DNA of 64,000 bases from an uncultured Bryobacteraceae bacterium (GTDB lineage Bacteria; Acidobacteriota; Terriglobia; Bryobacterales; Bryobacteraceae). The notes below the pieces were generated by a model that was given only the letters and a program-made list of their open reading frames with translations, searched no databases and was not told the DNA's origin. Positions 25,923 to 41,494 of the stretch are shown one piece after another. Position numbers and translations under genes: made by a program. Each line of letters starts with the position of its first letter. Position 1 is the stretch's first letter. The stretch is taken from contig CALKXJ010000008.1 in the NCBI GenBank assembly GCA_938003835.1, forward strand, positions 310,001-374,000, written 5' to 3'.

Positions 25923-26294
25923 CTATGATGCCGCCGCCTCGCGGATGAGCGCGGCGCATCGGAAGGCGCCGTAGCGGGCCTCGAGCTCCGAAGCCAGCGC
26001 GAGAAGCTCTTCGCGGCTGGCCCGGCCAGGGCGGAGCGCGTTGTAGATGGCCAGGATCTCCTCGTCGGGCACCGCCACCAGCTCGGCGGCCCGGCGCAGA
26101 TTCTCGGCCAGCTGCGGCCGGCCGGCCTGCTCGGCTACCTGGGCCTGAAGCTCGAGCGCCTCGGCGGTGAGCCGCAGATCGGCCATCGTCACCCGCCCGG
26201 CCATCACCGCCTCCAGAGTCACCTCTTCAAAGGGCAGGCCCGAGGGCGTCCGCAGGCGTTCCGCCATCTTCTCCGAGAGAGGATAGTCAGGCAA
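25923..26294 (-). CDS. Diol/glycerol dehydratase small (gamma) subunit
   Basis: I place the start at TTG 26294 (PDYPLSEKMAERLRTPSG), 6 bp after a strong GAGGAGG. It gives 123 aa and overlaps the upstream gene by 8 bp. The sequence matches the small subunit of B12-dependent diol/glycerol dehydratase (PduE/DhaE type): YPLSEK, TPSGLPFEEVTLEAVMAGRV, and IYNALRPGRAS. With the fused large-medium subunit it would convert 1,2-diols or glycerol to aldehydes using adenosylcobalamin. It is somewhat short at the N-terminus compared with PduE. Confidence 0.87.
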   Translation of the reverse strand: MPDYPLSEKMAERLRTPSGLPFEEVTLEAVMAGRVTMADLRLTAEALELQAQVAEQAGRPQLAENLRRAAELVAVPDEEILAIYNALRPGRASREELLALASELEARYGAFRCAALIREAAAS

Positions 26295-28509
26295 GGCGTA
26301 CCTCCTCGGCTGGCCGGCCTGGCGCCACCTGCTCGGTCTCCCTCCGGTGAAGGATCGTGGTCTTGACGATATATTTGAGCCGCGCCATATTGTCGATCTG
26401 AACGGGAACCGGCAGCACCGGCTCGCCCTTGGCGTACTTGGCCGCATTCCGGCCGATCACCCGGTAGGAATCGAGCGTCAGGTTCGGCGCCTGGGGAAAC
26501 AGCTCGAGATTGTCGAGCGGCTGGAGGTCACGGCGATGAATCACCGTGGTGCCCTTGGATTGGATGCCAATGGCGATGCCTGAGCCGCTCAGTTGCGCCC
26601 CTTGATAGCCGAGGAAGCCGCAATCGGAGGTCGAATAGACCTTGACGATCCGCGGTTCGAGCCCTTCCTGCCGCACCCCCTCGATCAAGGCTTCGAGCAC
26701 CCGGCGGTGCGGCAGACCGAGGAGTGTCTCGCGCAAGGCCGACCCAAAGGCTGGTCCGACTGCAATGACGATCTCGTCCGTCTGCCGGCCGGGCTGCGCT
26801 GGTCCGCATTCGACCAGCAGCGGCTCCTCATCTGCCGGGGCGGCGCCGATGGTGCGCGGATCCACGGCTTGCGGGATCCGGGCGATCTCATCGCGCCGCT
26901 CGGGAGTGAGCTGATAGCCGGTTCCGGGGCCGCGGTAATCATTCGGATCGTTCACCGCGCTCAGGACGCGTCCCCCTGGCAGCACGACAGCGGAGGTTTG
27001 CAGGAAATCGCCCGAGATCCGCAGTCTCTCGATCGCCAGAATGTTTTGCGCGATCTCGATGAAGCCACGCCGCGCCAGCGCGCGAATCACGTCGAGGGCG
27101 CTCGCGCCGCTTTCAAGGAGAGCGGTCGCGGCCTCGAGATCGGCGGGCACGTCGCGCTCCGGCATGTCGGTGCTCGAGTAGGCGTAGACGGCGGCCTCGA
27201 CCTCCTCGTCTCGGATCGGCGGCAAGCCGAGCTCGTCGAAGACCGCCTGCACGGCGCGGGCGGCGCGCCGCCGCACTTCCAGCACCCGCTCCTCGGCGAC
27301 CGGACGCAGGCCGCCGTCGACCAACATGTCGCGCTGGAGCACGTTGTAGTCGTCCAGGTCCTCGCCGTCGAAGTTCCCGCCGCCAAACAGATTGTCCTCG
27401 CGCGGCATCACGCTGTAGCCGGAGAAGATGAAGTCCGTGCCCGGCAGGAACTGGAGCATCAGCTTGGCCGTCTTGCGGATCTCCGAATGCGACGCCATCG
27501 CGTCGTTGCCCGAAGCAAGCTCCAGATCGAGCATCGCTGCAACGAGGTTCTCCGCCATGACGCCCCGCACACCGCCCGGCAGGGACTCCGGCAGGGCGAT
27601 GCAACTGATCGAGCCGTTCTGCACGCCCTGAGCCCCGGCGCCCTTGACGGCCATGAGGCAGCGCGTCTCCAGATACAGCATCGACCTGCCTTCGGAGTGG
27701 CCCATCAGCGCCTCCGAGCCCGAGCCCGAGGTGAAGCGGATCTTGACGCCGCGCGAGGCATAGGCCGAGGCTAGGAAGGCCTTCGACCACGGCGAGTCGT
27801 CCCCGTCGCGGAAAGCCCGCTCGGTGCCATATACGGAGAGAGTCTCGGCGTAGGTTGTCAGGCCTCGCAAGGCCAGCTTCAGGCCCAGCGATTCCTCGAC
27901 CGCGCACTGGGTCAGCGCGGCGCCGCGCCCGGTGCCGGAACCCACCAGGACGGCCAGAGCATTGAGCGGCGCGTAGCGCGACACGCCCACCGTCGTCTCG
28001 AGCTCCGTGAAGCCGCGCTCGACGGCCTCGGCGGCGTCGGCCGCGAGCAGTGCCGGGTGCTCGCGCCGGTTCGTCACGTGCGCCTGGTTGGAAGGTGTGC
28101 GCCGGGCCCGCATCTTCTGAAGCGCCATCATCATTTCGACAGCGTTCAGGCAGTCGACCACACGCACGATCTTGGCGGGCGTCAGGCCGCTCACCAGGCG
28201 CACCACCTCACTGCGAGGGACGTGGATATCGACGAGCATCCTCGCTATCGTTGCCGGCTCGAGCGCCATGGCCTCTTCGGCCACGCTCACGTCGATGGCG
28301 TGGCGCGCGATGAACCGGTCGAGCCAGTCGAACCGCTCCTCGGGCACACCGTCGAGTTCGACCACCCGGCCGGCTTCGATGCGGATGCTCGGCTCGGGAT
28401 CGCCGGGACTGTTAGAGATGACGAGGCCCGGCTCGAACCACTCTTCGATGAAGCTGTCGCGATGAATGGGCCGCGCGGCCCGGCGTTCGGAGCGTTTCGA
28501 AAGAGTCAT
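26287..28509 (-). CDS. B12-dependent diol/glycerol dehydratase, fused large and medium subunits
   Basis: The 740-aa protein joins two normally separate subunits. Residues 1 to about 555 match the large catalytic subunit (PduC/DhaB): GFTELETTVGVSRYAPLNA, TSGSGSEALMGHSEGRSML, LPGGVRGVMAENL and GGNFDGEDLDDYNVLQRD. Residues about 585-740 match the medium subunit (PduD): VIAVGPAFGSALRETL, LSGSGIAIGIQSKGTTVIH and LFPQAPNLTL. The small subunit follows with an 8-bp overlap. No reactivating factor, aldehyde dehydrogenase or microcompartment shell gene is in the window. GGAAGG lies upstream of the ATG. Fused versions are known in other bacteria, but the physiological substrate here is unknown. Confidence 0.92.
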   Translation of the reverse strand: MTLSKRSERRAARPIHRDSFIEEWFEPGLVISNSPGDPEPSIRIEAGRVVELDGVPEERFDWLDRFIARHAIDVSVAEEAMALEPATIARMLVDIHVPRSEVVRLVSGLTPAKIVRVVDCLNAVEMMMALQKMRARRTPSNQAHVTNRREHPALLAADAAEAVERGFTELETTVGVSRYAPLNALAVLVGSGTGRGAALTQCAVEESLGLKLALRGLTTYAETLSVYGTERAFRDGDDSPWSKAFLASAYASRGVKIRFTSGSGSEALMGHSEGRSMLYLETRCLMAVKGAGAQGVQNGSISCIALPESLPGGVRGVMAENLVAAMLDLELASGNDAMASHSEIRKTAKLMLQFLPGTDFIFSGYSVMPREDNLFGGGNFDGEDLDDYNVLQRDMLVDGGLRPVAEERVLEVRRRAARAVQAVFDELGLPPIRDEEVEAAVYAYSSTDMPERDVPADLEAATALLESGASALDVIRALARRGFIEIAQNILAIERLRISGDFLQTSAVVLPGGRVLSAVNDPNDYRGPGTGYQLTPERRDEIARIPQAVDPRTIGAAPADEEPLLVECGPAQPGRQTDEIVIAVGPAFGSALRETLLGLPHRRVLEALIEGVRQEGLEPRIVKVYSTSDCGFLGYQGAQLSGSGIAIGIQSKGTTVIHRRDLQPLDNLELFPQAPNLTLDSYRVIGRNAAKYAKGEPVLPVPVQIDNMARLKYIVKTTILHRRETEQVAPGRPAEEVRLA
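26301..26307 (-). promoter_or_regulatory. Shine-Dalgarno deciding the TTG start of the dehydratase small subunit
   Basis: GAGGAGG on the minus strand lies 6 bp before TTG 26294, inside the end of the large-subunit gene. No in-frame ATG or GTG has comparable placement, so the ribosome site decides this start. Confidence 0.7.
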
Positions 28510-28548
28510 GGTGGGTGAGCTGCCTTCCCGAATTTTACGGCAAGGAAT

Positions 28549-28659
28549 TCACCCGTTGAGGGGCAGCAGTTGAAGGATACGCTCGCGAAACTTCCCGGTT
28601 AACTCGGTCGCCGCTGCCAGCTCGTCGAACTCAGGATAGAGATAGGCGTCGTAGCGCAT
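28549..28659 (-). CDS. 36-aa reading frame after the nucleotidyltransferase remnant
   Basis: Two bases after the end of the broken nucleotidyltransferase frame, an ATG opens 36 codons (MRYDAYLYPEFDELAAATEL and on). An overlapping or adjacent HEPN partner is expected at this spot in MNT/HEPN modules, but a HEPN protein would be about 120 aa and no RX4-6H motif is present. It may be a truncated remnant of the partner or a chance frame. Confidence is low. Confidence 0.3.
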   Translation of the reverse strand: MRYDAYLYPEFDELAAATELTGKFRERILQLLPLNG

Positions 28660-28661
28660 CC

Positions 28662-29000
28662 TCAGCCGCGCTGGGCATAAAGGAGCCGGCCTTCGGGAAG
28701 AGTTGTAGCGACAACATGGTTCACTGCGCGAGACCACATCTGGACCTCTTCCGGGGTATACCAAAGCGGATCCTTCGGAACTCCGATCACTCCCACGGCC
28801 CTGTCGGCGCGCGCATCCTAGCGGTGTGGCGGCTCGTCGGAGGACTTCACAATCAGCAGGTCCAGATCGCTGTCGGGCCTGTGGTCACCCCTCGCTCGGC
28901 TGCCGAAAAGGATGATTTGATCGGGATCCAACGCTTCGACGAGACGGCGTACCGCTTCCGCGACTACAGGATCTTCCACGCCTGGAGGAGACGGCAGCAT
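28662..29000 (-). pseudogene. MNT-type nucleotidyltransferase interrupted by an in-frame TAG
   Basis: The first 60 codons encode the nucleotidyltransferase core: DQIILFGSRARGDHRPDSDLDLL, with the GS pair at 33-34 and the metal aspartates D45 and D47. A TAG at 28818-28820 ends it. The same frame then continues for 51 codons (GVIGVPKDPLWYTPEEVQ, EGRLLY) that match the normal C-terminal half (VPVDLIVYTPEE-type) of this family. The full product would be 112 aa. The simplest reading is a nonsense mutation in an antitoxin-type MNT gene of an MNT/HEPN module. Readthrough or a sequencing error are alternatives. Confidence 0.7.
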
Positions 29001-29015
29001 ACCGACTTACAATGC

Positions 29016-30083
29016 TCACTGTATGCGAACGAATGGCCGCGGAGCGCCTTGGCAGATCTCGGCCATGGCGGCCTGGCGCGTGTTCCGGCCGAGCTTGTCC
29101 CATTCGATCCGGCCGGATACGCCGGACCATGGCGCAAGCCCGCGCAGCGCGTCGCGGATCGCTTCGCGGTCGGCCCCGGCGCGGCGGACGGCTTCGAGCA
29201 ACAGCTCCGCGGCGTCGTAGGCGTGCGCGGCGAGGTGGTCGGGCGGCTTTCCCCAGCGAGCGGCGAAGCGCCGGGCGAAGTCTCGCGCCCGCTCCGACGA
29301 TCCCAGCGGATCTGGAAAGCGCACACCCTCGGCCGCGTCGCCGGCGAGTTCAAGAAACGTGCGGCTGCCGGCCGCCGGGCCGCAATAGATCGTGAGACCT
29401 GGCCTGAGCCGCCGAAGCTCTTGCACGACGGCGGCGCTGTCAGCCGGCCCGGCGAGAACAACGGCCGCCTCCACTTTGAGATCTTCGATCACCGCCAGAA
29501 GGCTCGTCTTGCCGGGATGGAATTCAAGGGCGCGCTGAGGCCGCAGGCGCCTTTCGGCGGCCAGAAGGAACTCTCGCCGGGTGATCCGTGAATCGTGGTC
29601 GGTGGAGGAGATCAGCACGAACGACGGACGTTCCCCGCCGGCAAGCATGCCCTCGACCAGCGCGCGCATCAGGCTGCGGTCGTCCGGCATCACCGAGAAG
29701 ATCCAGGGGACGAAAGCGGCGTTCACCGTGCGGTCGGTGCTCGCCGGATCCACGAGCGGCAGCAGCGCCTTGGCTACGATCTGCTCGGCCAGGTGCGTCG
29801 AGGTGCCGTCAATGCCGCCGATCAGAGCTGCGGTGTGCTCCTCGTAAATCAGCCTGGCCAGCTTGCCTGCGCCTCCGGTCCACGGGTTTTCGTCCCAGGC
29901 GGGGATCAGGAGCAGGGACTGCACCGGGGCGCGCTCTTCGAAGGCGAGGGAGACCCCTTGCCAGATCGACCCGCCGAGAGGATGGCTCGGGTCCGCCGGG
30001 CCGAAGTAGCCGATGCGAATCTCCTGTGCCGCGGTTATCCAGACGGCGAGCGCCGCCACGAGCCAGCGGCGGGCGGCGCGCAT
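29016..30083 (-). CDS. ABC-type branched-chain (LivK-like) substrate-binding protein
   Basis: The 355-aa protein has a signal peptide (about 1-19) and a type I periplasmic-binding fold (IRIGYFGPADPSHPLGGSIW; LAAHAYDAAELLLEA). This is the Leu/Ile/Val-binding family that recognises amino acids and diverse small organic ligands. It is the last gene of the six-gene minus-strand operon, starting within TGATG of the preceding paralogue. No permease or ATPase gene is in the operon, so it may act as a sensor or scavenger for a non-ABC partner. The ligand is unknown. Confidence 0.85.
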   Translation of the reverse strand: MRAARRWLVAALAVWITAAQEIRIGYFGPADPSHPLGGSIWQGVSLAFEERAPVQSLLLIPAWDENPWTGGAGKLARLIYEEHTAALIGGIDGTSTHLAEQIVAKALLPLVDPASTDRTVNAAFVPWIFSVMPDDRSLMRALVEGMLAGGERPSFVLISSTDHDSRITRREFLLAAERRLRPQRALEFHPGKTSLLAVIEDLKVEAAVVLAGPADSAAVVQELRRLRPGLTIYCGPAAGSRTFLELAGDAAEGVRFPDPLGSSERARDFARRFAARWGKPPDHLAAHAYDAAELLLEAVRRAGADREAIRDALRGLAPWSGVSGRIEWDKLGRNTRQAAMAEICQGAPRPFVRIQ

Positions 30084-31531
30084 CAGTCTTCCGTCGGCAG
30101 GTTGCGGCTCACGCGATCGCGCGGGGGGATGTAGCCGCGGGGAACCTGGAGGTCCTCGCGAGAGTAGTACCTCCAGCGACCTCCTTCGAAGCGCGCCAGG
30201 AAGACCTCGCCCAGATCGTCCATGGCGGCGCTGAAGGGGATGTCCCCAGTCACGCCCGGCCAGGGCTTGGTGCGTGCAGCGATCACGTCACGAATCTTGG
30301 CTCGATTCAACCCGGCCACCTGAATCGCCCAAATGAGCAGATTCATGCCGTCGTAGGCATGGGCCGCATAAGTCTCCGGTTCTTCGTTGAAGCGCTTCCG
30401 AAAAGCTTCCCGGAAGCGTTCGAGCTTCGGATCGCGACGATCCGGATTCCAGGGAGAGGCCGCGATGACGCCCTCGGCCAGATCTCCGGCAGCGTCGGTG
30501 AAGATCTTTGAGATCGTCCGATCGCAGGCAAAGAACGGCTGATCCATTCCCATGGCGCGCATCTGCTTGAGGATGATCGCTCCCTCCCGGGGGTTGCCCC
30601 AATGGACGACGGCGTCGAGTTTGGCCGCCTTGAGCCGCTCGATCTGCAGCGAGTAGTCGTCTTGGCCCAGCCGGTAGGCCATCTCGATCACCACCGGCCG
30701 GCCGAGACGCCGACAGGAGTCCTTGACCTCGCGCACGCCGAAGCGGCCGTAGCGGTTGCTCGAGCGGATGATGCCGATGCGCTTGTAGTCCTGCTTGCGG
30801 ATCATGTAGTCGACGAGCAAGTAGGCCTGTTGCCGGTCGTCGCTGATGACACGGGCCACCCAGGGGATGTTGGTCTCGATGAAGGTCGGGTCTGTGTCGC
30901 CGCTGGTGATCATGACTAGTTCTGCCTTCAAGGCCACGCGGATGGCGATGTGCGTATTCGCGCCGTCGATGCTGCCCAAAATGGCCCAGACACGATCTTT
31001 ATAGGCCATTTTGATGATCTCGTCGCCGGAGGAGCCCCACAGCCCGTTGTCGTTGCTCACCACCAGCTCGAAAGGGATGTTTCGGCGGAAGTATCCGCCC
31101 TTGGCGTTGGCCTCCTCGACGGCGAGCTGCGCACCCTGGAGCATTTTGATCCCGATTGTCTCTTCGTCATGGCTCTTGCCCCCGGTGGCGACGGAGACGG
31201 TGGGAATGATGGGCCCGAGAAAACCGATCTTGACCGTATCCACATGCTCCGGCTCGGGCTTGGCCCGCCCGGGTCCGTGGTACTGCATCTGGAGCAGAAA
31301 ATGTTCCTTGTAAGGCCTCACGCCGCTGTAGGGTTCGATATCGGCCGGCGTCCGGGCGTAGTTGGGATCCTTGCGCAGCTCCAGATCCGGGACCGTATAG
31401 GCATCCACCGCATGGATGCGCCGCAAAATCTCCGCCGTGTCTGGATCGATGAGTTCTCTGAGCCGCGGATCCTCTTCGGTCAGGCCGATTCCGGCCAACA
31501 ACAGCAGGCCGCTAAGTAATTTTGCGATCAT
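30083..31531 (-). CDS. LivK-like substrate-binding protein, longer paralogue
   Basis: The 482-aa protein has a signal peptide and a 100-residue N-terminal extension before the type I binding fold. The fold begins KIGFLGPIIPTVSVATGG and includes GAQLAVEEANAKGGYF, ILGSIDGANTHIAIRVALKA and AAHAYDGMNLLIWAI. It is paralogous to the next gene, overlapping it by one base, and overlaps the upstream propeller gene by 4 bp. The pairing of two binding proteins with heme and propeller proteins but no ABC membrane proteins is unusual. Ligand unknown. Confidence 0.85.
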   Translation of the reverse strand: MIAKLLSGLLLLAGIGLTEEDPRLRELIDPDTAEILRRIHAVDAYTVPDLELRKDPNYARTPADIEPYSGVRPYKEHFLLQMQYHGPGRAKPEPEHVDTVKIGFLGPIIPTVSVATGGKSHDEETIGIKMLQGAQLAVEEANAKGGYFRRNIPFELVVSNDNGLWGSSGDEIIKMAYKDRVWAILGSIDGANTHIAIRVALKAELVMITSGDTDPTFIETNIPWVARVISDDRQQAYLLVDYMIRKQDYKRIGIIRSSNRYGRFGVREVKDSCRRLGRPVVIEMAYRLGQDDYSLQIERLKAAKLDAVVHWGNPREGAIILKQMRAMGMDQPFFACDRTISKIFTDAAGDLAEGVIAASPWNPDRRDPKLERFREAFRKRFNEEPETYAAHAYDGMNLLIWAIQVAGLNRAKIRDVIAARTKPWPGVTGDIPFSAAMDDLGEVFLARFEGGRWRYYSREDLQVPRGYIPPRDRVSRNLPTED

Positions 31532-32667
31532 TGCCCACCTCCAGCCACTGCACGGGGCTCCGGGCGCAACCCGGCGTAATAATCCTCCCCGAGGCCGACG
31601 CCTAGGCCTTTGGCCGTCGCCACGAACACGTCGTTGCCGTCAAGGTCCAGGTTGATGATGAAGTTGTGCGGAATGCCAACCTCCATATCGACGATCCTGA
31701 GTAACTCCCGGTCGCGATAGACCTCGGCTCGCCCCCGGCGCGTTTTCGGATCCATGGTGTAAGCCACCCAGGTGTTCGTCTGGTAATCGGTGATCACGCC
31801 GACGCCTTTGTCGGTGGCAAACCAAGCCTCGTTGGCGCTGCGGGCCCGGATGTTGTTGATGAAATCGCTCGGCAGACCGGAGTCCTGGTTGTAGTAACCC
31901 CGCCAGTGCCTGCCGTCGTAGCGTGAGGCGCCGAAGTAACTCGATGCCCAAAGGGTGTTCTCGACGTAGGCCGCGCCGGTGACGATCACGTGGACGATCC
32001 CGTCGTCGCGGTACAGATCGATCTCCATCTCCCCGTCCGGATCGAGGTATTCCTTCCACCGTCCGGTCTTGACGTCGTACTCGAGCACGCCGCTGCCCCA
32101 CACCGCCAGATGCACCTTTCCGTCGCGGTAGTGGACGCCATAGTTCCAGATCTCTTCCATGGGCGCATTCTTCTCGGTGAAGATGGTCCACTCGCCGGTC
32201 ACGGTGTTGTAGCGGCTGGCCCCGGCGGTCGTAGCGGCCCAGATGTTGTCATTCTCGACCGCCACGCCGTAGACGACGTTGTTGACGAGTCCCGAATTGA
32301 GCTGGTGGAAATGATCGAAACGGCCTCCGGAGAAGCGGGCCAGCCCTCCGCCGAACAGGCCCAGCCAGACATCGCCCGTCTTGGGATCGACGTCGATCGC
32401 TGTGATCACCCGCCAGGGCAGGCCGTCCTCCTCCTTCCAGGTGCGGACCACCTTCCAGGTGCGCTTGTCAATCAGGGCCAGGCCGTTTTCGGTCCCCACC
32501 CAAAGGCGCCAGCCGTCGGACTTCACGGAGAAAATGTGATCGTCCGGCAGGCCATTGGCGACGGTGAACTGTTTCCATCTGGTGTAGACATACGGGAGGT
32601 CCAGGGCGGAGGCCTGCGCCACAAGCACCAGCGACACGAGGCCGAGCCCGATCGGTCCCCAGGCCAT
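31528..32667 (-). CDS. Secreted beta-propeller protein (two-component-regulator-propeller type)
   Basis: The 379-aa protein has a signal peptide (about 1-22) and repeated blades of the Reg_prop kind: FTVANGLPDDHIFSVKSDG, WVGTENGLALIDKRT, NVVYGVAVENDNIWAATTAG, and WFATDKGVGVITDYQT. Such propellers normally form the sensor part of hybrid two-component proteins. Here the propeller stands alone, with no kinase or membrane anchor beyond the signal. It lies 9 bp after the decaheme gene and overlaps the binding-protein gene by 4 bp. Confidence 0.82.
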   Translation of the reverse strand: MAWGPIGLGLVSLVLVAQASALDLPYVYTRWKQFTVANGLPDDHIFSVKSDGWRLWVGTENGLALIDKRTWKVVRTWKEEDGLPWRVITAIDVDPKTGDVWLGLFGGGLARFSGGRFDHFHQLNSGLVNNVVYGVAVENDNIWAATTAGASRYNTVTGEWTIFTEKNAPMEEIWNYGVHYRDGKVHLAVWGSGVLEYDVKTGRWKEYLDPDGEMEIDLYRDDGIVHVIVTGAAYVENTLWASSYFGASRYDGRHWRGYYNQDSGLPSDFINNIRARSANEAWFATDKGVGVITDYQTNTWVAYTMDPKTRRGRAEVYRDRELLRIVDMEVGIPHNFIINLDLDGNDVFVATAKGLGVGLGEDYYAGLRPEPRAVAGGGQ

Positions 32668-32676
32668 GTTTCCCTC

Positions 32677-35538
32677 CTATAAGGTCTTCAGATACTCGAT
32701 CAGATCGTTGAGCTGATCCTTGGTCAAATCATTCGTCACGCCGTGTTTGTCTTCGGGGTTGTAAACCGTCCAAATCTCCTCGAGCGAATGCGCCATACCG
32801 TTGTGTAGGTAGGGAGCGGAGTCGTAGATATTGTTGAGCTGCGGCGTGTCGAACTTGCCGTCAGTGTCATAGGGGCTGCGCGTTCCGACATCGTGCAATT
32901 GCCTGTCAGTGAAATAAGGCGCCGGATGGCAGCTCACACAGCGCTGGCCGCGGGGAATCTCGCGGCCGTCGCTCGTCCGGGTTCGTTCGAAGATGGCCCT
33001 CCCGCGCCGCTGCGCCGGAGTGAGCTCTGCGCCGAGCGTCCGGAAGCGGTTCGGCGGCCGCAGAATGCTGGCGATGTAGGTGTCCACGGCCGACAGCTCG
33101 TCGGGTGTAAAGGGTTGGATGCGGGTGAAGAAGACCGCCAGCCGCGGGCCGCACTGCCGCGCCAGACTGGGATTGAGGCCGTTCCACTTAAAGGGCGCGG
33201 TGTCCAGGATGCCTCGCAGCGTGCGGTTATCCACATGATTGACTCCGATGCCGTCTCCCTCGATGTCGTAGGTGAGCCCGTCCACGTGTCCGCCGGGATG
33301 GCAGGTGGCGCAGGAGAACTGGCGGCGAAACGTGATGCCCGCGTTGTGGAACAGCCGCTCGCCGTAACGCACCTTGGTTATCTCGCGCGGCCCTCCCAGG
33401 TCGATCCGTCCGGTGACTTCAAAACGTTCCAGATCCACCACGCTCAACGAGTCATCCAGGCCGTTTACCACGACCACCGTCTTGCCGTCAGGCAGGATCA
33501 ACAGGTCCCGGGGGTTGTACGACAGCGGGATATGCTTGACGACGAATTCCGTCGGCTTGCCCAAGTGGTTGGGCAGCACATGGCGCCGCTCGTAGGGCGA
33601 GGCCTGGCGCAGCAGGCTCACGAGCTTGTCGAGATCCACCACGGCGAGCCGGTCCCGGCCGCCGCTGGTGATGAGGGCAAAACGCCCATCGGGCGTGATC
33701 GCCACCGCGTTTGGGTCGGCGAAGCCCCAATCCGGCTCATCGAGCAGCACCTGGTCGGTGGAGCCGTCCTCCCACATCAGGCCGAGGCCGTTGGTGATGG
33801 TCCAGCCTTGCAGCAACCGCGTCATCGGAACCAGGTTCTTGGTGCGGTTCAGCGTCACCAGCGCGTAGTCGCCGCTGGGATGCCAGGCGACGCCTTTAAG
33901 GAGATTGGCGGCCGGAAAGACAACCCTGTCCTCGACGATGGCCCGCCCGGCCTCGATAATGGTCAGCTCAGCCACCGGCGGCGTCAGGAAGGGCGTCAAG
34001 CGCGGCAGGGTGTGGGTCACGGCGATCCGGGCGCCGTCGGGCGACTGCGCCGCTGCCCAGGGACGCCGGCTGGCGGCGAGCTTCTTGAGCCGCCGCAGCG
34101 AATTCAGCTCGAAAACATGAACGTCGTCGCCGGCCGCGTTGAGCACGAACAGGAACTTGCCCTGCCGGTCGGTAATCAGCCCGTGCGGCTCGTCTCCCAC
34201 CTCCAGAGTCCCCATCACCTTCCGCTCGGCGGCGTCGATCACCGAAACCGTATCGTCGAAGACGTTTGAGACAAAGACCCGCCGGCCGTTCGGGGAAAAG
34301 ACGACGCCGTGAGGCTGTTTGCCGACGGGGATCTCGGCGAGTTTCGCCCAGGCGCGGGCATCGACCACGATCACCGAATCCGAGCCGGAGCAAGTCACAT
34401 ACAGCTCGCGGCCCTGGGGATCGAGCGCCAGGCTGACCGGCGTCTTGTAGCGGGGCTCCTCGGCGGAGGCCGTCTTCGCCGGACGCGTCGGGTGCGCGAT
34501 CGCCTCCATTTTGAGTTCGTACTGCTTGCCGTGGGCCTGCCGGTGACACGGCATGCAGGTCTGGCTGCCCACTTCTTTGAGCCCCGCGGCGCGAGCGGCG
34601 CGCCGGTCGCGCATGATGGCTTCCGCCATGTACTCGCTGCCTGGGCCGTGGCAAGCCTCGCAGCCGACGCCTTCGTCCGGGGAGAACGAGGCGAGCACGG
34701 CATCGGCCGGGGCCAGAGCGCCCGGGGAATGGCACTCCAGGCACTGGGGCAACTGCTGCGGGTCGCCGTCGAGGCCTTTCGCCTTGGCCAGCTCCCGTGC
34801 CCGGGGCGTTGCCAGCACCGACCAGGCGCGGGCGTGCGGACTCATCCGCCAGAGGCTGTCCTGGTGCCCGCTTTCCGGGCCTCGATGGCACTTGTTGCAG
34901 GCGGCCACACCGACATATTTCGGCCCGGCGCGCTTCTTGCCGCCGTCGGTGCTGGGCTGCCGGAGCCCGCCCATGGCCGCATTCTGCGGCGTCGGATGAG
35001 CGATTGCCTTCATCCGGCTCTCAAAGTCAAAGGTCGCTACCGCCAGCACGGCCACGTGCGAGCCCTTCGTGATGTGGCAGCGCATGCAATCGGCTGCGGT
35101 CGGCATTTTCAATCCGGCGGCCCGCGCCGCTTCGGGATTCCGCATCACCTCCTCGGCCATATACTCGCTGCCGGGCCCGTGGCAGTCCTCGCATTGGACG
35201 CCATCTTCGAGGCGCAGGCTCTCTTCCTTCTGCCACGGTTCGGCCAGCGCCGCGGGAGCGTGGCAACCCATGCACGTCGGCGAGGCTTGCGGATCTCCGC
35301 GCAGCCCGGACAGTTGGAGAATCTTTTGTGCTTCCGGCTTGGCCAGCGCCGCATAGCTTTGGCTGTGCTTGGAGTGCAACCAGAGCGAGAATTGATAGCC
35401 CATGCCGGCTCCGTCGTGGCAGGTGCCGCAGACGCGAGCCCCCACGTAGACCGGCTCGCCGGCGGCTGCCCGAACCCATGCCGCGGCGCCGGCCACGGCG
35501 ACGAGCAGAATGGCCCCGGAGAAAACCCTGGCTCTCAT
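32677..35538 (-). CDS. Ten-heme cytochrome c / YVTN propeller / MauG-type peroxidase fusion
   Basis: The 953-aa exported protein (signal about 1-26) has three modules. Residues about 30-350 hold two tetraheme c554-like units with eight CxxCH motifs: CGTCH, CMGCH, CEDCH, CMRCH, CNKCH, CLECH, CEACH and CMPCH. The two units repeat the HGPGSEYMAE signature. Residues about 360-720 form a YVTN/lactonase-like propeller (RELYVTCSGSDSVIVVDA, GRRVFVSNVFDDTVSVIDA). From about 725 to the end is a diheme peroxidase/MauG-like domain with CATCH and CVSCH and the NNIYDSAPYLHNGMAHSLEE ending. It probably moves electrons across the periplasm or outside. It overlaps the next upstream gene by 4 bp. Confidence 0.9.
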   Translation of the reverse strand: MRARVFSGAILLVAVAGAAAWVRAAAGEPVYVGARVCGTCHDGAGMGYQFSLWLHSKHSQSYAALAKPEAQKILQLSGLRGDPQASPTCMGCHAPAALAEPWQKEESLRLEDGVQCEDCHGPGSEYMAEEVMRNPEAARAAGLKMPTAADCMRCHITKGSHVAVLAVATFDFESRMKAIAHPTPQNAAMGGLRQPSTDGGKKRAGPKYVGVAACNKCHRGPESGHQDSLWRMSPHARAWSVLATPRARELAKAKGLDGDPQQLPQCLECHSPGALAPADAVLASFSPDEGVGCEACHGPGSEYMAEAIMRDRRAARAAGLKEVGSQTCMPCHRQAHGKQYELKMEAIAHPTRPAKTASAEEPRYKTPVSLALDPQGRELYVTCSGSDSVIVVDARAWAKLAEIPVGKQPHGVVFSPNGRRVFVSNVFDDTVSVIDAAERKVMGTLEVGDEPHGLITDRQGKFLFVLNAAGDDVHVFELNSLRRLKKLAASRRPWAAAQSPDGARIAVTHTLPRLTPFLTPPVAELTIIEAGRAIVEDRVVFPAANLLKGVAWHPSGDYALVTLNRTKNLVPMTRLLQGWTITNGLGLMWEDGSTDQVLLDEPDWGFADPNAVAITPDGRFALITSGGRDRLAVVDLDKLVSLLRQASPYERRHVLPNHLGKPTEFVVKHIPLSYNPRDLLILPDGKTVVVVNGLDDSLSVVDLERFEVTGRIDLGGPREITKVRYGERLFHNAGITFRRQFSCATCHPGGHVDGLTYDIEGDGIGVNHVDNRTLRGILDTAPFKWNGLNPSLARQCGPRLAVFFTRIQPFTPDELSAVDTYIASILRPPNRFRTLGAELTPAQRRGRAIFERTRTSDGREIPRGQRCVSCHPAPYFTDRQLHDVGTRSPYDTDGKFDTPQLNNIYDSAPYLHNGMAHSLEEIWTVYNPEDKHGVTNDLTKDQLNDLIEYLKTL

Positions 35539-37160
35539 CGCTTGGCCTCTCCGGCCCGGACCGTACGAACCAGCCGCAGGGTCTGATTCGCTCTGACCTT
35601 TTCCCGCTTTTCGACCGTCCCGTCCGGCCAGCGGATCTCCACCGTAGCCGCCGTGGCCTTTCCCAGGCCGAAATGCAGGCGAGGATCGGCCTGCGAGAGA
35701 TAGCCGCGCACCGGAATCAGCTCCTCGACCTGCCTGAGCTTGCCTGTGGTGACCGTCACGCGAGCTCCCAAGGCGTCTCGCATTCCCGTCGGAAATTGAA
35801 GTTTCGCCTCGACCTTCAGCCAGTTGTTCCGATTTCCCCCGTCGTTGCGCAACAGGCGCGCCGCGTCATTGAGATTCACGACCACCAGGTCCAGATCGCC
35901 GTCGTTGTCGTAATCGAAATGGGTGGCGCCGCGCCCGACATATTTTTCATGGAAGTACTGGCCGGAGATCTTCGAAACGTCCTCGAAAGTGCCGTCGCCC
36001 TTGTTGCGCACCAGGGTATCCTCCTCGACGTACTCGTGGTGCGCGGCGCCGTGCGTGGTGAACAGATCGAGCCACCCGTCGTTGTCGTAGTCAAAGAGAA
36101 CCGGCGCCCAACCTGTGTACTGTCCCATGACGACGGCGAGTCCGACCGACCCGGTGCGATACTCAAATCCGGTCTGGCTCTGCATCAACAGGGTGCAATA
36201 ATTCAGATCGGGGATGAAGACGTCCAGCAGGCCGTCGCGGTCGATGTCGCCGATGGCCGGCCCCATCGAGGCCACGTTTTGGCCGTTTTCGCCGTACGCC
36301 AGGTTGTACTCGAGCGCCTTGTCCACGAAGCGCCCGTTGCCGTCCGGCTCGAAGTAGTAATTCTCCATGGCGTCATTAGGCACGAAAATCGCCAGGCGGC
36401 CCGTATTGCGCAGGTCGGTGGCGGTGACGCTCATGGCGCGGCCGTCGGGCATGAAGATGCCGACCTGTTCCGTCACCTCGGTGAAGGTGCCGTCGCCGTT
36501 GTTGCGGTAGAGCCGGTCCGGTTCTCCCGCGTAACTTAAGGGGCCGGGATAGCCTTGAGCCGGATAGAAATCGCGAAATTTGCCGTCGTCGTACTTAAGG
36601 TAGTTGGCCACGTAGACGTCGAGCCAGCCGTCGCCGTCGAAATCGAACCAGACCGCGTGCAGGCTCCAGCGCGGATCATCGAGCCCCGAAGCCTTGGAAA
36701 CGTCGGTGAACGTTCCGTCTCCGTTGTTCCGGTAGAGCACATTCGGCCCGTAATTGAGCACGTAGAGATCGACGTCGCCGTCGTTGTCATAGTCGGCGGC
36801 GGAGCAACCGCTCGAAAATGTCTTGTCGCCCGTGCCCGACTCCTCGGTCACGTCGGTGAACGTGCCGTTGCCGTTATTCCGATAGAGATGATTCGTGAGC
36901 TTGCCACGGAGGTCGCGACCACGCACGTCGCTGACGCCCTTGGTCCAGGCGCCGTTGGTGAAGTAGATATCGAGCCAGCCGTCGTTGTTGTAGTCGAAGA
37001 CGCAGACGCCGGCGCCCGTGCCCTCGACGATGTTGTCCAGGTGATGATCCCCGAAGCTGTGGCGGAACTGGATGCCGGCTTCGCGCGTGACGTCAGTGAA
37101 CACGGGCAGATCCGCGGCCAGCGAGGCGGTAAGCGGCAGCAACACGAGTGTGACCCTCAT
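35535..37160 (-). CDS. FG-GAP repeat / ASPIC-UnbV (CRTAC1-like) secreted protein
   Basis: I chose the ATG at 37160, overlapping the upstream stop (ATGA). It gives 541 aa with a clear signal peptide (MRVTLVLLPLTASLA). The frame is open further upstream only as an antisense-type shadow. The body consists of calcium-binding FG-GAP repeats (VFDYNNDGWLDIYFTNGA, DYDNDGDVDLYVLNYG and others), each with DxDxDG-like loops, forming an integrin-type propeller. It ends in an ASPIC/UnbV domain (GARVTVTTG, HFGLGKA, VEIRWPDGTVE). Such proteins are secreted and of unknown function, often next to TPR or heme proteins. Confidence 0.92.
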   Translation of the reverse strand: MRVTLVLLPLTASLAADLPVFTDVTREAGIQFRHSFGDHHLDNIVEGTGAGVCVFDYNNDGWLDIYFTNGAWTKGVSDVRGRDLRGKLTNHLYRNNGNGTFTDVTEESGTGDKTFSSGCSAADYDNDGDVDLYVLNYGPNVLYRNNGDGTFTDVSKASGLDDPRWSLHAVWFDFDGDGWLDVYVANYLKYDDGKFRDFYPAQGYPGPLSYAGEPDRLYRNNGDGTFTEVTEQVGIFMPDGRAMSVTATDLRNTGRLAIFVPNDAMENYYFEPDGNGRFVDKALEYNLAYGENGQNVASMGPAIGDIDRDGLLDVFIPDLNYCTLLMQSQTGFEYRTGSVGLAVVMGQYTGWAPVLFDYDNDGWLDLFTTHGAAHHEYVEEDTLVRNKGDGTFEDVSKISGQYFHEKYVGRGATHFDYDNDGDLDLVVVNLNDAARLLRNDGGNRNNWLKVEAKLQFPTGMRDALGARVTVTTGKLRQVEELIPVRGYLSQADPRLHFGLGKATAATVEIRWPDGTVEKREKVRANQTLRLVRTVRAGEAKR

Positions 37161-38884
37161 GGCTGGGCTCCCAGATCGATCCACTCGATGATGGTGAGTC
37201 TCTCGTCTTCCGTGAGCGGCGGCGAACCCGGCGGCGGCATCGGCTGGAGCGCTCCGTTCCCGTCGAGCTGGCTCCAGGGGAACGAACTCTTCTTCCCATT
37301 GAGCCGCCAGACGAGCGGGCTGATCCGCGCTGCCGGCGCCAGGTAACCGGCCAGATCCGACTTGCCCATCAGCCGCGGCGGCACCGCGCCGCCGTGACAG
37401 GCCAAGGCGGCGCACTTGGATTGGAGTACGGGCGCGACGTCCCGGCGGAAGCTGATGCTGCGACGCCGCTCGGGCGGCAGCGTCAAGTCGACCGCCGGGC
37501 GGGCCAACGCGGTGGCGTAGCGGTTTTCGGGCGTCAGCTCGGGATCCTCGTGGCAGCCGATGCAGCCGCGCGCTTCCTGGTTCCGCACCCAGATCCAGCG
37601 GCAGGAACGCAGCACCATGCCGCCCGGGTCGAGCAGTTGCAGCTCGAGGGGGATGTTCGCCGGCACGCGCAGCTTGAAGGAGCCATCGGGGTCGGCGCGG
37701 AACTCCCCAAGAACGCGTCTCGCCACAGGGGCGGGCTTCTCCTGGGCGCCGCCTGGCGCCCCCTCGACGACGCGGAAGCGCATCGGCGTGCCCGGCGCCA
37801 GCCAAGACTCTTGCGGGAGATCGCTGATGTAAGCATTTAGGCAGTACAACTGGCCCGTGGGCTCTTTGGGCTCGACGACCGAGGAGCGCCCGTCGGGCAC
37901 CGCTCTGGGCGCGATTCGTTGCGCCTGAACATCATGCCAGGCCGGGTCATCGAACACCGGCAGCCACCGGCGTGTCGCCGGATCGAACCGGACGATGCCG
38001 TAGGTGCCCTTGCCGGAGGCGGGCCGGCGCGAAACCAGAATCTCGCCGCCCGGCAGCGGGGAGGGGTAAACGTATAGAGCGTCGGACGGTTCCGTCAGTC
38101 GCTGATAGCTCAAAAGCGGGCGGCGCTGGCTGACGGCTGCAAGGTTCCCCGCGCCGTCCGGGGTGAGCCGTTCGCTCTCGACGAAAACCACCAGCCCGCC
38201 CGCAGTCAGCACGGGCGTTCGCTTGTAGGGGGCGCCCTCGAGCGATCCGTACAGGGCGACATCGGTCCCGTCCAAATTGAGCCCGAACAGCACCAGGCGG
38301 TCCGCCGGGCCCGGCTCCAGGCGGTCGCGCTGGCGGGAGGCGTAAACCATGCGGCCATCCGCCATCATCACCGGATCCAGATCGCCGTAAGGGTTAAAAC
38401 TGATCCGGGTGAGGTCGCTGCCGTCCAGCCGGATGGTATATAGGCTCGGAACGGCTCCCGGCACCGACCCGACGAAAGCTACCTGTTGCCAGGGCAGGTC
38501 ACTCGATAGCACGTAGAGCGAGGACTGGTAGATCGGACTGCGGCAGTCCATCTCGGCCCGCACCAGCTGGCGCGTGGCCCGGCTCTCAAGATCCAGCTCG
38601 TAGATCTGCCAGTAGTCGCCGGCTGAACGCTTGCCGGAGAAAAGAATGCGTTTGCCGTCAAAGGAGACGTGAGGGTCCCGCGCGGCGTAAAAGCCTGGCG
38701 ACAGCACTTCAAGTGTTGCGCGCTCCCGGAGCAGCACGATCCGGGCCATCTCGGCCTTGCCCGCCGGGCTTGCCTGTGTGAAAACGAGCGGAAACGGCCC
38801 GTCGGCGGCCCCCCAGGCTAGAGCGGCGGCCAGCAGGCCGCAACCAGCTCTCCAGCCCCCGGCGCTGCCGATAATCCGGCCCAT
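37157..38884 (-). CDS. HzsA-middle-domain-like heme protein with PD40-type propeller
   Basis: The 575-aa secreted protein has TolB/PD40-like blades in its first half (DPHVSFDGKRILFSGKRS; SFNPYGDLDPVMMADGRMVY). This pattern belongs to the hydrazine-synthase alpha-subunit middle-domain family, which also occurs in many non-anammox bacteria with unknown roles. A heme motif CIGCH lies near residue 440 in ARGCIGCHEDPE. A second motif CAALACH near 490 has four rather than two spacer residues (CX4CH). The C-terminus (PPLTEDERLTIIEWIDLGAQ) resembles planctomycete cytochrome domains. It is the first gene of the operon, behind a good promoter. Hydrazine chemistry is not implied. Confidence 0.82.
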   Translation of the reverse strand: MGRIIGSAGGWRAGCGLLAAALAWGAADGPFPLVFTQASPAGKAEMARIVLLRERATLEVLSPGFYAARDPHVSFDGKRILFSGKRSAGDYWQIYELDLESRATRQLVRAEMDCRSPIYQSSLYVLSSDLPWQQVAFVGSVPGAVPSLYTIRLDGSDLTRISFNPYGDLDPVMMADGRMVYASRQRDRLEPGPADRLVLFGLNLDGTDVALYGSLEGAPYKRTPVLTAGGLVVFVESERLTPDGAGNLAAVSQRRPLLSYQRLTEPSDALYVYPSPLPGGEILVSRRPASGKGTYGIVRFDPATRRWLPVFDDPAWHDVQAQRIAPRAVPDGRSSVVEPKEPTGQLYCLNAYISDLPQESWLAPGTPMRFRVVEGAPGGAQEKPAPVARRVLGEFRADPDGSFKLRVPANIPLELQLLDPGGMVLRSCRWIWVRNQEARGCIGCHEDPELTPENRYATALARPAVDLTLPPERRRSISFRRDVAPVLQSKCAALACHGGAVPPRLMGKSDLAGYLAPAARISPLVWRLNGKKSSFPWSQLDGNGALQPMPPPGSPPLTEDERLTIIEWIDLGAQP

Positions 38885-38922
38885 CAGTCGGCCTCCCCGG
38901 ACTCGCTCACGTCGTCAGAAAA

Positions 38923-38952
38923 AGTATATCGGAGTCCGGTGTCGCCAGTAAA
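38923..38952 (-). promoter_or_regulatory. Predicted sigma70-type promoter of the six-gene heme/propeller operon
   Basis: On the minus strand TTTACT (38947-38952) and TATACT (38923-38928) are spaced by 18 bp, with a predicted start near 38916. That is about 30 bases before the ATG at 38884. It is well placed to drive the whole operon down to 29016. Confidence 0.5.
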
Positions 38953-39001
38953 GATACACTGACAGTGGGCGCGCCTGATACGCCCGCCGGGAGCCAACGC
39001 G

Positions 39002-40030
39002 ATGACAGGCCGTGAGCGAATTCTCAAGCACTTGAAGGGAGAGCGGGTCGACCACCTGCCCCTGATGCCCATCACCATGATGTTCGCCGCCGACCAGATC
39101 GGCGCCCGCTACCGGGACTACGCCACCGATCACCGGGTTCTGGCTGAGGCCCAGGTCTTCACGGCGCGCAAGTTCGGCTTCGATTACGTCTCGGCCATCT
39201 CGGATCCGGCACGCGAGGCCGCCGATCTCGGCGCCGAGGTCGAGTACTTCGACGACCAGCCGCCGGCGATTGTCGAGGAGCGGGCCCGCCTGGCCGACAA
39301 AAGCGAACTCGACCGGCTCGAGGTGCCCGACCCGCTGGGCGGCGGCCGCATGCACGATCGGGTGAAGGCGGTGGCGCTGCTCAGGGAGAAGGTCGGGCAG
39401 GAGAAGCTTGTCGAAGGCTGGGTCGAAGGCCCTTGCGCCGAGGCTGCCGACTTGCGCGGCATCAACACTTTGATGCTCGACCTCGTGGATGACCCCGGCT
39501 TTGTGCGCGCGCTGTTCGAGTTCATCGTCGCCATGGAGCTACGTTTCGCCCGGGCGCAACTCGAGGCGGGCGCCGACCTCATCGGCGTCGGGGACGCTGC
39601 CGCCTCGCTCATCGGCCCGCGGCTTTACGAGCAACATGTGTTGCCTTACGAGAAGAAACTGATCGAGGGCCTGCATCGGATGGGCGCCCTGGTGCGATTG
39701 CATATTTGCGGCCGCACCACCAAGCTCCTAACCTGGTTGGGGCACCTCGGCGCAGACATTCTCGACCTGGACTGGATGGTGCCGCTCGATTTGGCGCGCG
39801 CCCAGAGCCGCCCGGGACAGGTCTTGCTGGGAAACATCGACCCGGTGGCGGTTCTGCGCAACGGCACACCCGCACAGGTTCAAGCGGCGCTGGCCGACTG
39901 TCACCGCGCCGCCGGCCCCCGCTACATCGTCGGCGCCGGCTGCGAAGTGGTGCGCGACACCCCGGAGGCGAATGTCCACGCTATGGCCGAATACGCCACC
40001 ACGCCGCCGGAATCCCCGGCTACGCCGTAG
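39002..40030 (+). CDS. URO-D-like protein (MtaA/MtbA-type, HxC...C zinc site)
   Basis: The 342-aa protein starts MTGRERILKHLKGERVDHLPL and has the URO-D barrel. A zinc site is formed by H234 and C236 (LHICGRTT) plus C314 (VGAGCEVVRDTP), the arrangement of methylcobamide:CoM methyltransferases. Length fits the MtaA/MtbA branch better than the first URO-D-like gene in this window. The methyl donor and acceptor are unknown, and no corrinoid protein gene is present here. It is divergent from the heme/propeller operon. An 11-bp palindrome (CACTGACAGTG, 38957-38967) lies upstream and might be an operator. Confidence 0.87.
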   Translation: MTGRERILKHLKGERVDHLPLMPITMMFAADQIGARYRDYATDHRVLAEAQVFTARKFGFDYVSAISDPAREAADLGAEVEYFDDQPPAIVEERARLADKSELDRLEVPDPLGGGRMHDRVKAVALLREKVGQEKLVEGWVEGPCAEAADLRGINTLMLDLVDDPGFVRALFEFIVAMELRFARAQLEAGADLIGVGDAAASLIGPRLYEQHVLPYEKKLIEGLHRMGALVRLHICGRTTKLLTWLGHLGADILDLDWMVPLDLARAQSRPGQVLLGNIDPVAVLRNGTPAQVQAALADCHRAAGPRYIVGAGCEVVRDTPEANVHAMAEYATTPPESPATP

Positions 40031-40165
40031 GCGTCCTCCCGGCGCCCGGTCCTCGCCGCAGCATCGATGAACCAGATGTCGCGGCGCGAACGCTGCCGTG
40101 ATAGAGTCTGCTGGATAGTGAGCCGGGTGTTTCATCCAGGAACCGGCTCCGAGAAAGGAATGACT

Positions 40166-41494
40166 ATGCAGGGCATTTCCAGACGCGCTTTCCTGGCCTC
40201 CGCACCCGCTGGCGCCGGCCTGGTCGCGGGCTGCCGGCGCGCCGCGGCGCCCGGCGGGGTGCGACACCATCCGCTGGACGGCGTCAGCCGAGAGAACCTG
40301 AAGATCACGGATATCAAGGTCACACTGCTTTCTTATGAACTCCCGAAAGACAAGATCTGGGTCACCGGTGCCATCGAGTGCTGGAAAACCGACGCGATTC
40401 TGATCCAGGTCTTCACCGACCAGGGCATCGTGGGCATCGGCGAATCCACCCAATACGGTGGGCCGGAGCTGATCAAGAAGTTCGTCGAAGAGCAGATCCG
40501 GCCGCGCCTGCTAGGCAAGAATCCCTTCGACGTCGAGCATCTGACGCCGGTCTGGCAGCCGGCGCCCTGGGGCCAGCAGGTGGCCTGGGCGGGCGTCGAC
40601 GGCGCGCTGTGGGACATCATCGGCAAGGCCAAGAACCTGCCCGTCTACCGGTTGCTTGCCGTCGATCACGAACCCAACCCGCACATTCGGATGTACGCCA
40701 GCGGCGGCGTCGAATATGCCTGGTACAAGCGACCCGAGGATCTCATCGACGAGGCAGTCCGGCATAAGGAAGCCGGCTATACCGCCTTCAAGTTCCGCAT
40801 CGGAACCGACTGGAAGGCCAGCGGCATCACCGTCGCCAAGTACGTTCCCTACCTGCGCAAGATGCGCGAAGCCGTCGGCTGGGATTTCGACCTGATGCAG
40901 GAATCGAATATGCGGCTGACGCTCGAGGAGTGTCTGGAGCTGGCCCCGGTGCTTGAGGAGCTGAAGTTTCTCTGGTTTGAAGAGCCCATCCGGCGCCAGG
41001 AGCCGGGCGCCATCGACGGCTATCGCAAGATCCGGGAGGCGATGAAGACCGTCAAGGTTTCGGGCGGCGAGACCATGGTCACGCGCCAGGACTTCAAGGA
41101 GTGGATCGATCGCGACGGCTACGACATCGTCCAGCCCGACGCCAACACCACTGGAATCACCGAGGCCTGGCACATCGCGCGGGTCGCGCATCTCAACGGC
41201 AAGATCTGCTGCCCGCACAACTGGCACGGCGGTCTGACCACGATGATGAACGCGGCGCTGGTGGCAGGCATTCCCAACCACCTGGTGCTCGAGCTCAACC
41301 AGACCTTCAACCCGCTCAAGGAGGAGGTCTTCAAGGAGCCCCTGGTGGTCAAGAAAGGCTACATGGACCTGCCGAACAAGCCCGGCTTTGGCGTGGAGCT
41401 GGCCGGCTCGGCCGAGGATCTGGCCAAGAAGTTCCCCTACATTCCAGGCCACTACTACCGGCCGAATCCGGAGCTGCCAAAGGCACCGAAGTAA
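40166..41494 (+). CDS. Exported mandelate racemase/enolase-superfamily protein (galactonate dehydratase-like)
   Basis: I prefer the ATG at 40166 (442 aa), which has AAGGA 6 bp upstream; an ATG at 40160 is also possible. The N-terminus is a twin-arginine signal with a lipobox-like end (ISRRAFLASAPAG, LVAGC). The body is an enolase-superfamily enzyme with FKFRIGTDW, metal-ligand regions MQESN, FEEP and SGGE, and a late PHNWHGGL histidine motif like galactonate/mannonate dehydratases. These enzymes abstract a proton next to a carboxylate and dehydrate sugar acids. Export of such an enzyme is unusual. It converges with the PQQ dehydrogenase gene (19-bp gap). Confidence 0.87.
   Translation: MQGISRRAFLASAPAGAGLVAGCRRAAAPGGVRHHPLDGVSRENLKITDIKVTLLSYELPKDKIWVTGAIECWKTDAILIQVFTDQGIVGIGESTQYGGPELIKKFVEEQIRPRLLGKNPFDVEHLTPVWQPAPWGQQVAWAGVDGALWDIIGKAKNLPVYRLLAVDHEPNPHIRMYASGGVEYAWYKRPEDLIDEAVRHKEAGYTAFKFRIGTDWKASGITVAKYVPYLRKMREAVGWDFDLMQESNMRLTLEECLELAPVLEELKFLWFEEPIRRQEPGAIDGYRKIREAMKTVKVSGGETMVTRQDFKEWIDRDGYDIVQPDANTTGITEAWHIARVAHLNGKICCPHNWHGGLTTMMNAALVAGIPNHLVLELNQTFNPLKEEVFKEPLVVKKGYMDLPNKPGFGVELAGSAEDLAKKFPYIPGHYYRPNPELPKAPK

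Follow-up and report, generated by a model that had tools for sequence, protein, structure and literature searches.

Hydrazine synthase (HZS) has long been regarded as unique to anammox bacteria. In a 64,000-nucleotide stretch of DNA (the window; positions 310,001 to 374,000 of contig CALKXJ010000008.1, assembly GCA_938003835.1) from an uncultured Bryobacteraceae bacterium, we found six open reading frames (ORFs), A to F, all on the minus strand between positions 38884 and 29016. By sequence and model comparison they encode all three HZS modules, α (A), β and γ (both in C), together with a CRTAC1-type protein (B), a Reg_prop propeller (D) and two LivK-like binding proteins (E and F). We propose that they specify an exported multihaem oxidoreductase complex of the HZS superfamily with two dedicated periplasmic receptors, a reading to which we give about an even chance (0.5).

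Homology to hydrazine synthase and active-site residues

The product of gene A combines a propeller, an HZS_alpha middle domain and a C-terminal cytochrome domain, with a CXXCH haem motif at residues 441-445 and one CX4CH motif in the C-terminal domain. Among solved structures it matched the α subunit of Kuenenia HZS (5c2v_A, 7.2e-38) and otherwise a TolB-like propeller, at a marginal level (0.05). A ten-sequence profile of gene A aligned with 5c2v α in four collinear stretches (7.4e-70), TolB being next at 1e-7. When A was modelled with AlphaFold (pLDDT 86.8), 535 of the 575 residues aligned with 5c2v chain D (Z 36.0, rmsd 3.4, 30% identity), which we took as the α subunit from its length and range; the next fold matches were to TolB (Z 28), over the propeller alone. 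The first-pass annotation, made from the sequence without database searches, had described A as HzsA-middle-like; the assignment to the HZS α family stands, but the likeness extends over the full length rather than the middle only. A is the one PF18582 protein of its genome.

Protein C contains ten CXXCH motifs, eight of them N-terminal, in two c554-like units, and two in the γ domain, and its residues 365-953 match HZS β and then γ, in that order (NF052342, 204 bits, 2.9e-60). Both subunits were found among the solved structures (5c2v_B, 2.4e-33; 5c2v_C, 1.3e-23), and the C profile matched HZS β at 1.4e-63, in a single alignment of profile positions 8-348 with chain residues 12-350, and HZS γ at 1e-36. 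The generic YVTN surface-layer protein 1l0q had a better E-value than HZS β on the C propeller (1e-40), but through four separate repeats, whereas the HZS β match is a single alignment (residues 367-701). Families of the MauG/MbnH type also matched C weakly, with 36 bits versus 204 bits for the HZS family. The earlier description of C as a ten-haem/propeller/MauG fusion was right about the domains and the ten motifs but missed their identity as fused HZS β-γ (HzsBC). A second, more distant HzsBC-like protein is encoded in the same genome (L048; G000:C4:44006-45793, minus strand), with no A-F genes seen nearby.

We compared the residues around the HZS haems with those of the homologues. Tyr591 of the α subunit is the axial ligand of haem α-I (PMC12607021, PMC12758564). 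The α-I haem motif of 5c2v reads CSGCHYGSYR, and Tyr591, numbered through an offset of 27 from His587, lies in a two-residue insert missing from the homologues' profile. The Zn ligand αCys303, which is not universal even among anammox bacteria (PMC12758564), aligned with Leu in the window's A. The position of γHis144, near haem γ-I, is Trp in all 81 sequences, including the window (Trp785); the meaning of this Trp as the CCP/MauG position is given in PMC12758564. γAsp168, located at haem γ-I of HZS (PMC12607021), is lost: CGRD aligned with CGPRL, the position being Arg in the single sequence or Leu in the profile. The third haem thioether cysteine, γCys165, is Cys in 62 of the 81 (Asp in 15, Ala in 1, unparsed in 3), and the window keeps it as Cys796.

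The NCBIfam equivalog cut-offs were also far from reached, at 145 of 800 bits for NF052339 and 204 of 1250 bits for NF052342. The altered residues (αTyr591, αCys303, γHis144 and γAsp168) and the unmet cut-offs led us to rule out an anammox hydrazine synthase; to judge from them, the system is a homologue of HZS that is probably no hydrazine synthase and probably makes no hydrazine. The genome contained zero matches to PF13447 (HAO/HDH-type), yet the control genomes gave none either, and no match to TIGR02376 (copper nitrite reductase) at an E-value ≤0.001, other nitrite reductases not being tested.

Conservation of the cluster, its binding proteins and its neighbours

At least 514 relatives of C emerged from a genome scan, and the best 80 were kept as related loci; 39 of the 80 were fully visible, their flanks reaching 6 kb or more upstream and 6.5 kb or more downstream. 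The order A-B-C-D-E(-F) recurred in relatives across several phyla, with B placed ahead of A in most Bacteroidota loci. Of the 39 fully visible loci, 36 had genes A to E together and on one strand, the exceptions being L085 (C alone), L106 (no A, no B) and L107 (no A). Per-gene profiles showed A to E in 53 of the 80 loci, and 24 of the 27 incomplete ones were without ample flank. D was present in 74 of the 80 and in 38 of the 39; L087 was scored as D-less in the profile count although tblastn detected D. Four loci of more distant HzsBC paralogues (L048-L051), taken as a negative control, had no A-F set, with one weak A-like match (63 bits) at L049; L049-L051 are short contigs. The first-seen loci overlap with the 80 (L053, L065, L097, L117), so the two sets are not independent. 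Since other phyla have these genes in an unchanged order, their clustering goes beyond chance, and we rejected chance neighbourhood. This supports the first-pass view that the six genes make up one system, which proved to be conserved: relatives carried the same order rather than random subsets.

In a quick tree of C, with SH-aLRT support only and 64 rows (58 of the 80 loci, five paralogue rows and the window), the window fell in a ten-haem clade of Acidobacteriota, Planctomycetota, Verrucomicrobiota and two metagenome-assembled genomes, one of Aminicenantes and one deltaproteobacterial, the latter being its nearest neighbour. The eight-haem segment of C is absent from the other clades that have the same cluster. 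Strong HzsBC matches occurred in 13 of 297 genomes of the phylum. The system is thus patchy, probably through transfer between phyla.

In protein E, an N-terminal stretch of some 80 residues separates the leader from the fold. From residue 98 to residue 456, its model (pLDDT 90.2) adopts the LivK fold (Z 42); the N-terminal stretch lies outside the listed PDB matches, no separate search of it having been made. An attempt to read the ligand from the fold neighbours of E failed; the solved relatives at Z 35-42 bind leucine, γ-aminobutyrate/alanine, 3-/4-hydroxybenzoate, amides and urea. E and F have separate sets of invariant residues, those of E including Trp165, Trp182, His194, Trp224, Asp231-Asp232-Arg233, Arg260 and Arg263; 4 of the 44 rows in the E alignment (L089, L097, L098, L102) are E-F fusions represented by their final 500 residues, which slightly blur this list and the input to the E model. 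With invariant residues of their own, E and F probably each recognise something specific.

Of the 39 fully visible loci, 20 have F as a recognisable gene of its own on the cluster's strand. Another 15, all two-haem Acidobacteriota (L092, L093, L101, L102, L118 and ten others), have it as a partial domain joined to the end of E, and this fusion suggests that E and F work side by side. In the remaining loci F was on the opposite strand (L078) or missing (L065, L085, L106). Pfam recognised no Liv-type permease in the operon, and the genome, rated 100% complete, contained no PF02653 permease at an E-value ≤1e-10, a search that was positive in 12 of 14 controls. We therefore rejected E and F as parts of a Liv-type importer in this genome, and judged by these searches they appear to be orphan binding proteins. 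At the same threshold PF02653 was absent from 11 of the 23 genomes with strong HzsBC, the window's own included.

Two further families recur around related clusters. A RidA-like protein (Rid) of about 165 residues stood in or beside the cluster in 46 of the 80 loci by tblastn (47 by same-strand profile), that is, in 12 of 32 loci of clade I (a published class described below; two of the 12 weak, at 78 and 84 bits), 6 of 13 in Bacteroidota/Chlorobiota and 28 of 35 others. DAHP synthase was present in 24 of the 80 (1, 6 and 17 in the same groups). The place of both families varies by lineage, DAHP synthase lying ahead of A, between Rid and E, downstream of F or in the space separating E from F, as if they had been recruited more than once. 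The window's own genome holds a Rid on another contig, unlinked. Across the 297 phylum genomes, 15 had Rid over 150 bits (17 at an E-value ≤1e-25) and 8 had both Rid and HzsBC (Fisher p 5e-9, uncorrected for kinship).

The Rid proteins passed no cut-off of the curated models. TIGR00004 (RidA imine deaminase) gave 50 bits of 106, and TIGR04444 (FkbO/Hyg5 chorismatase) gave 41 of 325 bits for the best of three proteins, over the C-terminal half only, a weaker match than that to general Rid models. When the L039 Rid was aligned with 2dyy, Leu stood in place of the Arg before the LP motif, a residue that presumably has a role in RidA imine deaminase.

Some features of these neighbours were observed in passing. 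In four cluster DAHP synthases (L039:12615-13514, L042:12684-13592, L082:13704-14678 and L083:4171-5055) the customary GIRTFETATRNTLD stretch has been lost and the GPC, KPRTS, LLKRG and DPSH motifs are retained; the L039 type is also without the usual RTFETATRNTLD stretch. From these sequences a change of substrate is possible. A GMC oxidoreductase adjoins the cluster in L042, L044, L099, L109 and L110, accompanied in four of the five by a gluconate 2-dehydrogenase subunit 3 protein. At sites apart from the HzsBC cluster, in L140 (9036-12717), L141 and L142, the same Rid lies beside a one-haem protein of 760-830 residues, and DAHP synthase is present at the L140 and L142 sites as well; the one-haem protein of L140 has a TPR tail and gave TPR matches only.

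Operon layout and flanking genes

The six genes lie head to tail. A and B, B and C, and D and E each overlap by 4 bp, E and F overlap by 1 bp, and 9 bp separate C from D; these junction lengths are those that the first-pass annotation had reported. All six proteins begin with signal-like leaders (judged by eye, with no predictor), in agreement with its statement that they are exported. For gene B the ATG at 37160 fits, and the TTG at 37805 of the ORF list is too long. Pfam assigned HZS_alpha to A; FG-GAP and UnbV_ASPIC to B; cytochrome c554, a propeller and CCP_MauG to C; Reg_prop to D; and Peripla_BP_6 to E and F. The promoter-like site in Table 1 is the sole one on the minus strand in 28500-39100, with 2 sites in total versus 1.4 expected, which is not above chance; the site count in this consensus scan is by itself no evidence for an operon promoter.

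Table 1. Coordinates of the operon genes and the promoter-like site in the window
Feature	Position	Strand	Matches
Gene A: HZS α-like exported haem protein	37157..38884	-	PF18582 1.3e-16; 5c2v_A 7.2e-38; profile 7.4e-70; model
Gene B: CRTAC1-type FG-GAP/ASPIC protein	35535..37160	-	PF13517, PF07593
Gene C: two c554-like tetrahaem units, HZS β-like propeller and HZS γ-like dihaem domain	32677..35538	-	NF052342 2.9e-60
Gene D: Reg_prop propeller protein	31528..32667	-	PF07494 1.8e-06
Gene E: LivK-fold binding protein	30083..31531	-	PF13458 1.6e-41
Gene F: second LivK-like binding protein	29016..30083	-	PF13458 1.2e-28
Promoter-like site TTTACT-18-TATACT, upstream of gene A	38923..38952	-	consensus scan only

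Directly downstream of the operon, a B12-type diol/glycerol dehydratase with fused large and medium subunits (PF02286 and PF02288) is encoded at 26287-28509 (minus strand). Divergent from the operon, 39002-41494 (plus strand) encodes a URO-D/MtaA-like protein and an enolase-superfamily protein, followed at 41514-43376 (minus strand) by a pyrroloquinoline quinone (PQQ)-type dehydrogenase related to those of glucose, quinate and shikimate (TIGR03074, 543 of 832 bits, the match beginning only at profile position 154). The URO-D-like, enolase and PQQ dehydrogenase flanks are absent from the families common to at least 4 of 90 loci. Farther away, a large Fe-S protein (Fer4_7, Fer4_11) at 8664-11759 (plus strand) is the first of a run of genes that, from its pattern, we take to be possibly an alternative complex III.

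Possible function and known systems

In the complex that we propose, α and β-γ would assemble as in HZS. Haem γ-I, with its CCP/MauG-type Trp and HZS-type third Cys, and haem α-I would be the catalytic sites, the c554 segment would wire γ-II to the respiratory chain, and the CRTAC1 and Reg_prop propellers would serve as scaffolds. E and F may capture a substrate, an effector or a product and, as the search gave no Liv-type permease for its uptake, would present this ligand to the complex. The recurrent DAHP synthase and RidA-like neighbours of related clusters suggest a shikimate-related small molecule, which would be made from, or feed into, shikimate-pathway carbon. The first-pass annotation had imagined an oxidation system that binds a small organic ligand and passes electrons to multihaem cytochromes; the pairing of ligand binding with multihaem cytochromes fits, and E and F look orphan, while oxidation as the direction and the organic ligand are hypothetical.

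Several points weigh against the proposed complex. Its assembly is assumed from HZS, and its catalysis, its direction and the shikimate relation of the small molecule are predictions from sequence and structure comparison. Synteny was judged on near kin, the 80 loci being the best of at least 514 relatives. The window's cluster is without Rid and without DAHP synthase, and the shikimate link is weakest in clade I; 5 of the 13 HzsBC genomes of the phylum have no Rid, and 7 of the 15 Rid genomes have no HzsBC. In addition, 12 of the 23 genomes with strong HzsBC do hold at least one PF02653 permease. A more ambitious version, which we think unlikely, is a widely transferred system in which a shikimate-derived aromatic (through DAHP synthase and Rid) is exported and recognised by the orphan receptors of LivK type, and serves the HZS-like complex as a substrate, a cofactor or a redox shuttle, anammox HZS being an offshoot.

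A rival reading, also unlikely in our view, is that the complex is still a nitrogen-oxide enzyme, whose γ-I would reduce NO or hydroxylamine-type compounds and whose α-I would join or transfer the product, the substrate not being ammonium. In its favour, the operon retains each of the three HZS modules as well as the third haem cysteine, and γ-I of HZS binds NO (PMC12607021); however, the four residues discussed above are not kept, the TIGR02376 search was negative within its limits, and DAHP synthase and Rid do not point to nitrogen oxides. We would hold just as doubtful a MauG/MbnH- or peroxidase-like γ that either consumes hydrogen peroxide or has CRTAC1, Reg_prop or one of the binding proteins as a partner to oxidise, with α as an accessory. 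The invariant Trp and the weak MauG/MbnH family matches agree with such a role, but the HZS family scores far higher on C, and a peroxidase requires no α subunit and no pair of binding proteins.

An extracellular conduit, carrying electrons to or from minerals or humics while the binding proteins sense quinone-like compounds, seems to us a little less plausible again. In clade I, C carries eight fused haems of c554 type, which speaks for it, but they are missing in the other clades of the cluster, which argues that the wire is not the core function; nor was a porin recognised among the annotated recurrent neighbours, a weak test. We consider very improbable that E and F serve an ordinary ABC importer with the haem proteins as chance neighbours: both are LivK-like by sequence, E by its model too, but no Liv-type permease was found in the operon, nor in the genome at the threshold above, and gene order is conserved across phyla.

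The conserved gene set around HZS relatives, with its orphan receptors and shikimate-pathway neighbours, makes a testable system of homologues to which no function had been assigned, and it bears on the origin of the anammox enzyme; if the aromatic-handling version were true, anammox hydrazine synthase would be an offshoot of an aromatic-handling family. HZS_alpha matches in environmental genomes should not be taken as an anammox marker.

The statement of the first-pass annotation that no known pathway uses this set overlooks the homology of the core genes to hydrazine synthase and the fact that the cluster type is already in print (PMC12758564). Searches of open-licence papers brought up PMC12758564 and PMC10732223 on such homologues, with PMC12607021 on HZS itself. 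In PMC12758564, Hagglund et al. (2025) sorted HZS homologues into clades I-IV, clade I having the order α - CRTAC1 - β-γ and eight extra haem motifs, with members in Paludibaculum (P. fermentans, Bryobacteraceae), Syntrophobacter, Opitutus, Aquisphaera and Thermogutta; two downstream ABC-type binding-protein genes are mentioned in the sentence following clade III, and so at least for that clade. The paper reports the αTyr591, αCys303 and γHis144 changes and the kept Cys165 and does not appear to propose a function; its main text does not contain the words Reg_prop, Rid, DAHP or shikimate. The window resembles clade I in gene order, eight c554 haem motifs, retained Cys165 and Trp at His144; on these features it is probably a member, and in our tree it groups with ten-haem forms from Planctomycetota, Verrucomicrobiota and Acidobacteriota. 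For the hzsABC-like genes of Phycisphaerae in the Oslofjord tunnel (PMC10732223), the authors suggested a broader enzyme family and thought that some of them might take part in anammox. Their isolate OFTM5 (L077) branches close to the base of the ten-haem clade, and the residues found here argue against anammox.

Compared with Kuenenia HZS (5c2v), the operon shares the α, β and γ modules, haem motifs α-I, γ-I and γ-II and the third haem cysteine, but differs in fused β-γ, eight added haem sites, the CRTAC1, Reg_prop and binding-protein genes, the loss of αTyr591, αCys303, γHis144 (to Trp) and γAsp168, and scores far under the NCBIfam cut-offs. With the dihaem CCP/MauG/MbnH proteins C has in common the two CXXCH motifs in γ and Trp785, and is set apart by the HZS-type third cysteine, the propeller fusion and the paired α gene. 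E and F share the LivK fold with AmiC/Liv-type binding proteins, of which AmiC (Z 35) is a precedent for a receptor (its role as given in the PDB title), and differ in having no importer found, invariant residues of their own and, on E, the N-terminal stretch. Added here to the published description are the A-E linkage in 36 of 39 loci, Reg_prop as a regular member, F as a separate or fused partner of E, the lack of a permease match in the window's own genome, and the links to Rid and DAHP synthase.

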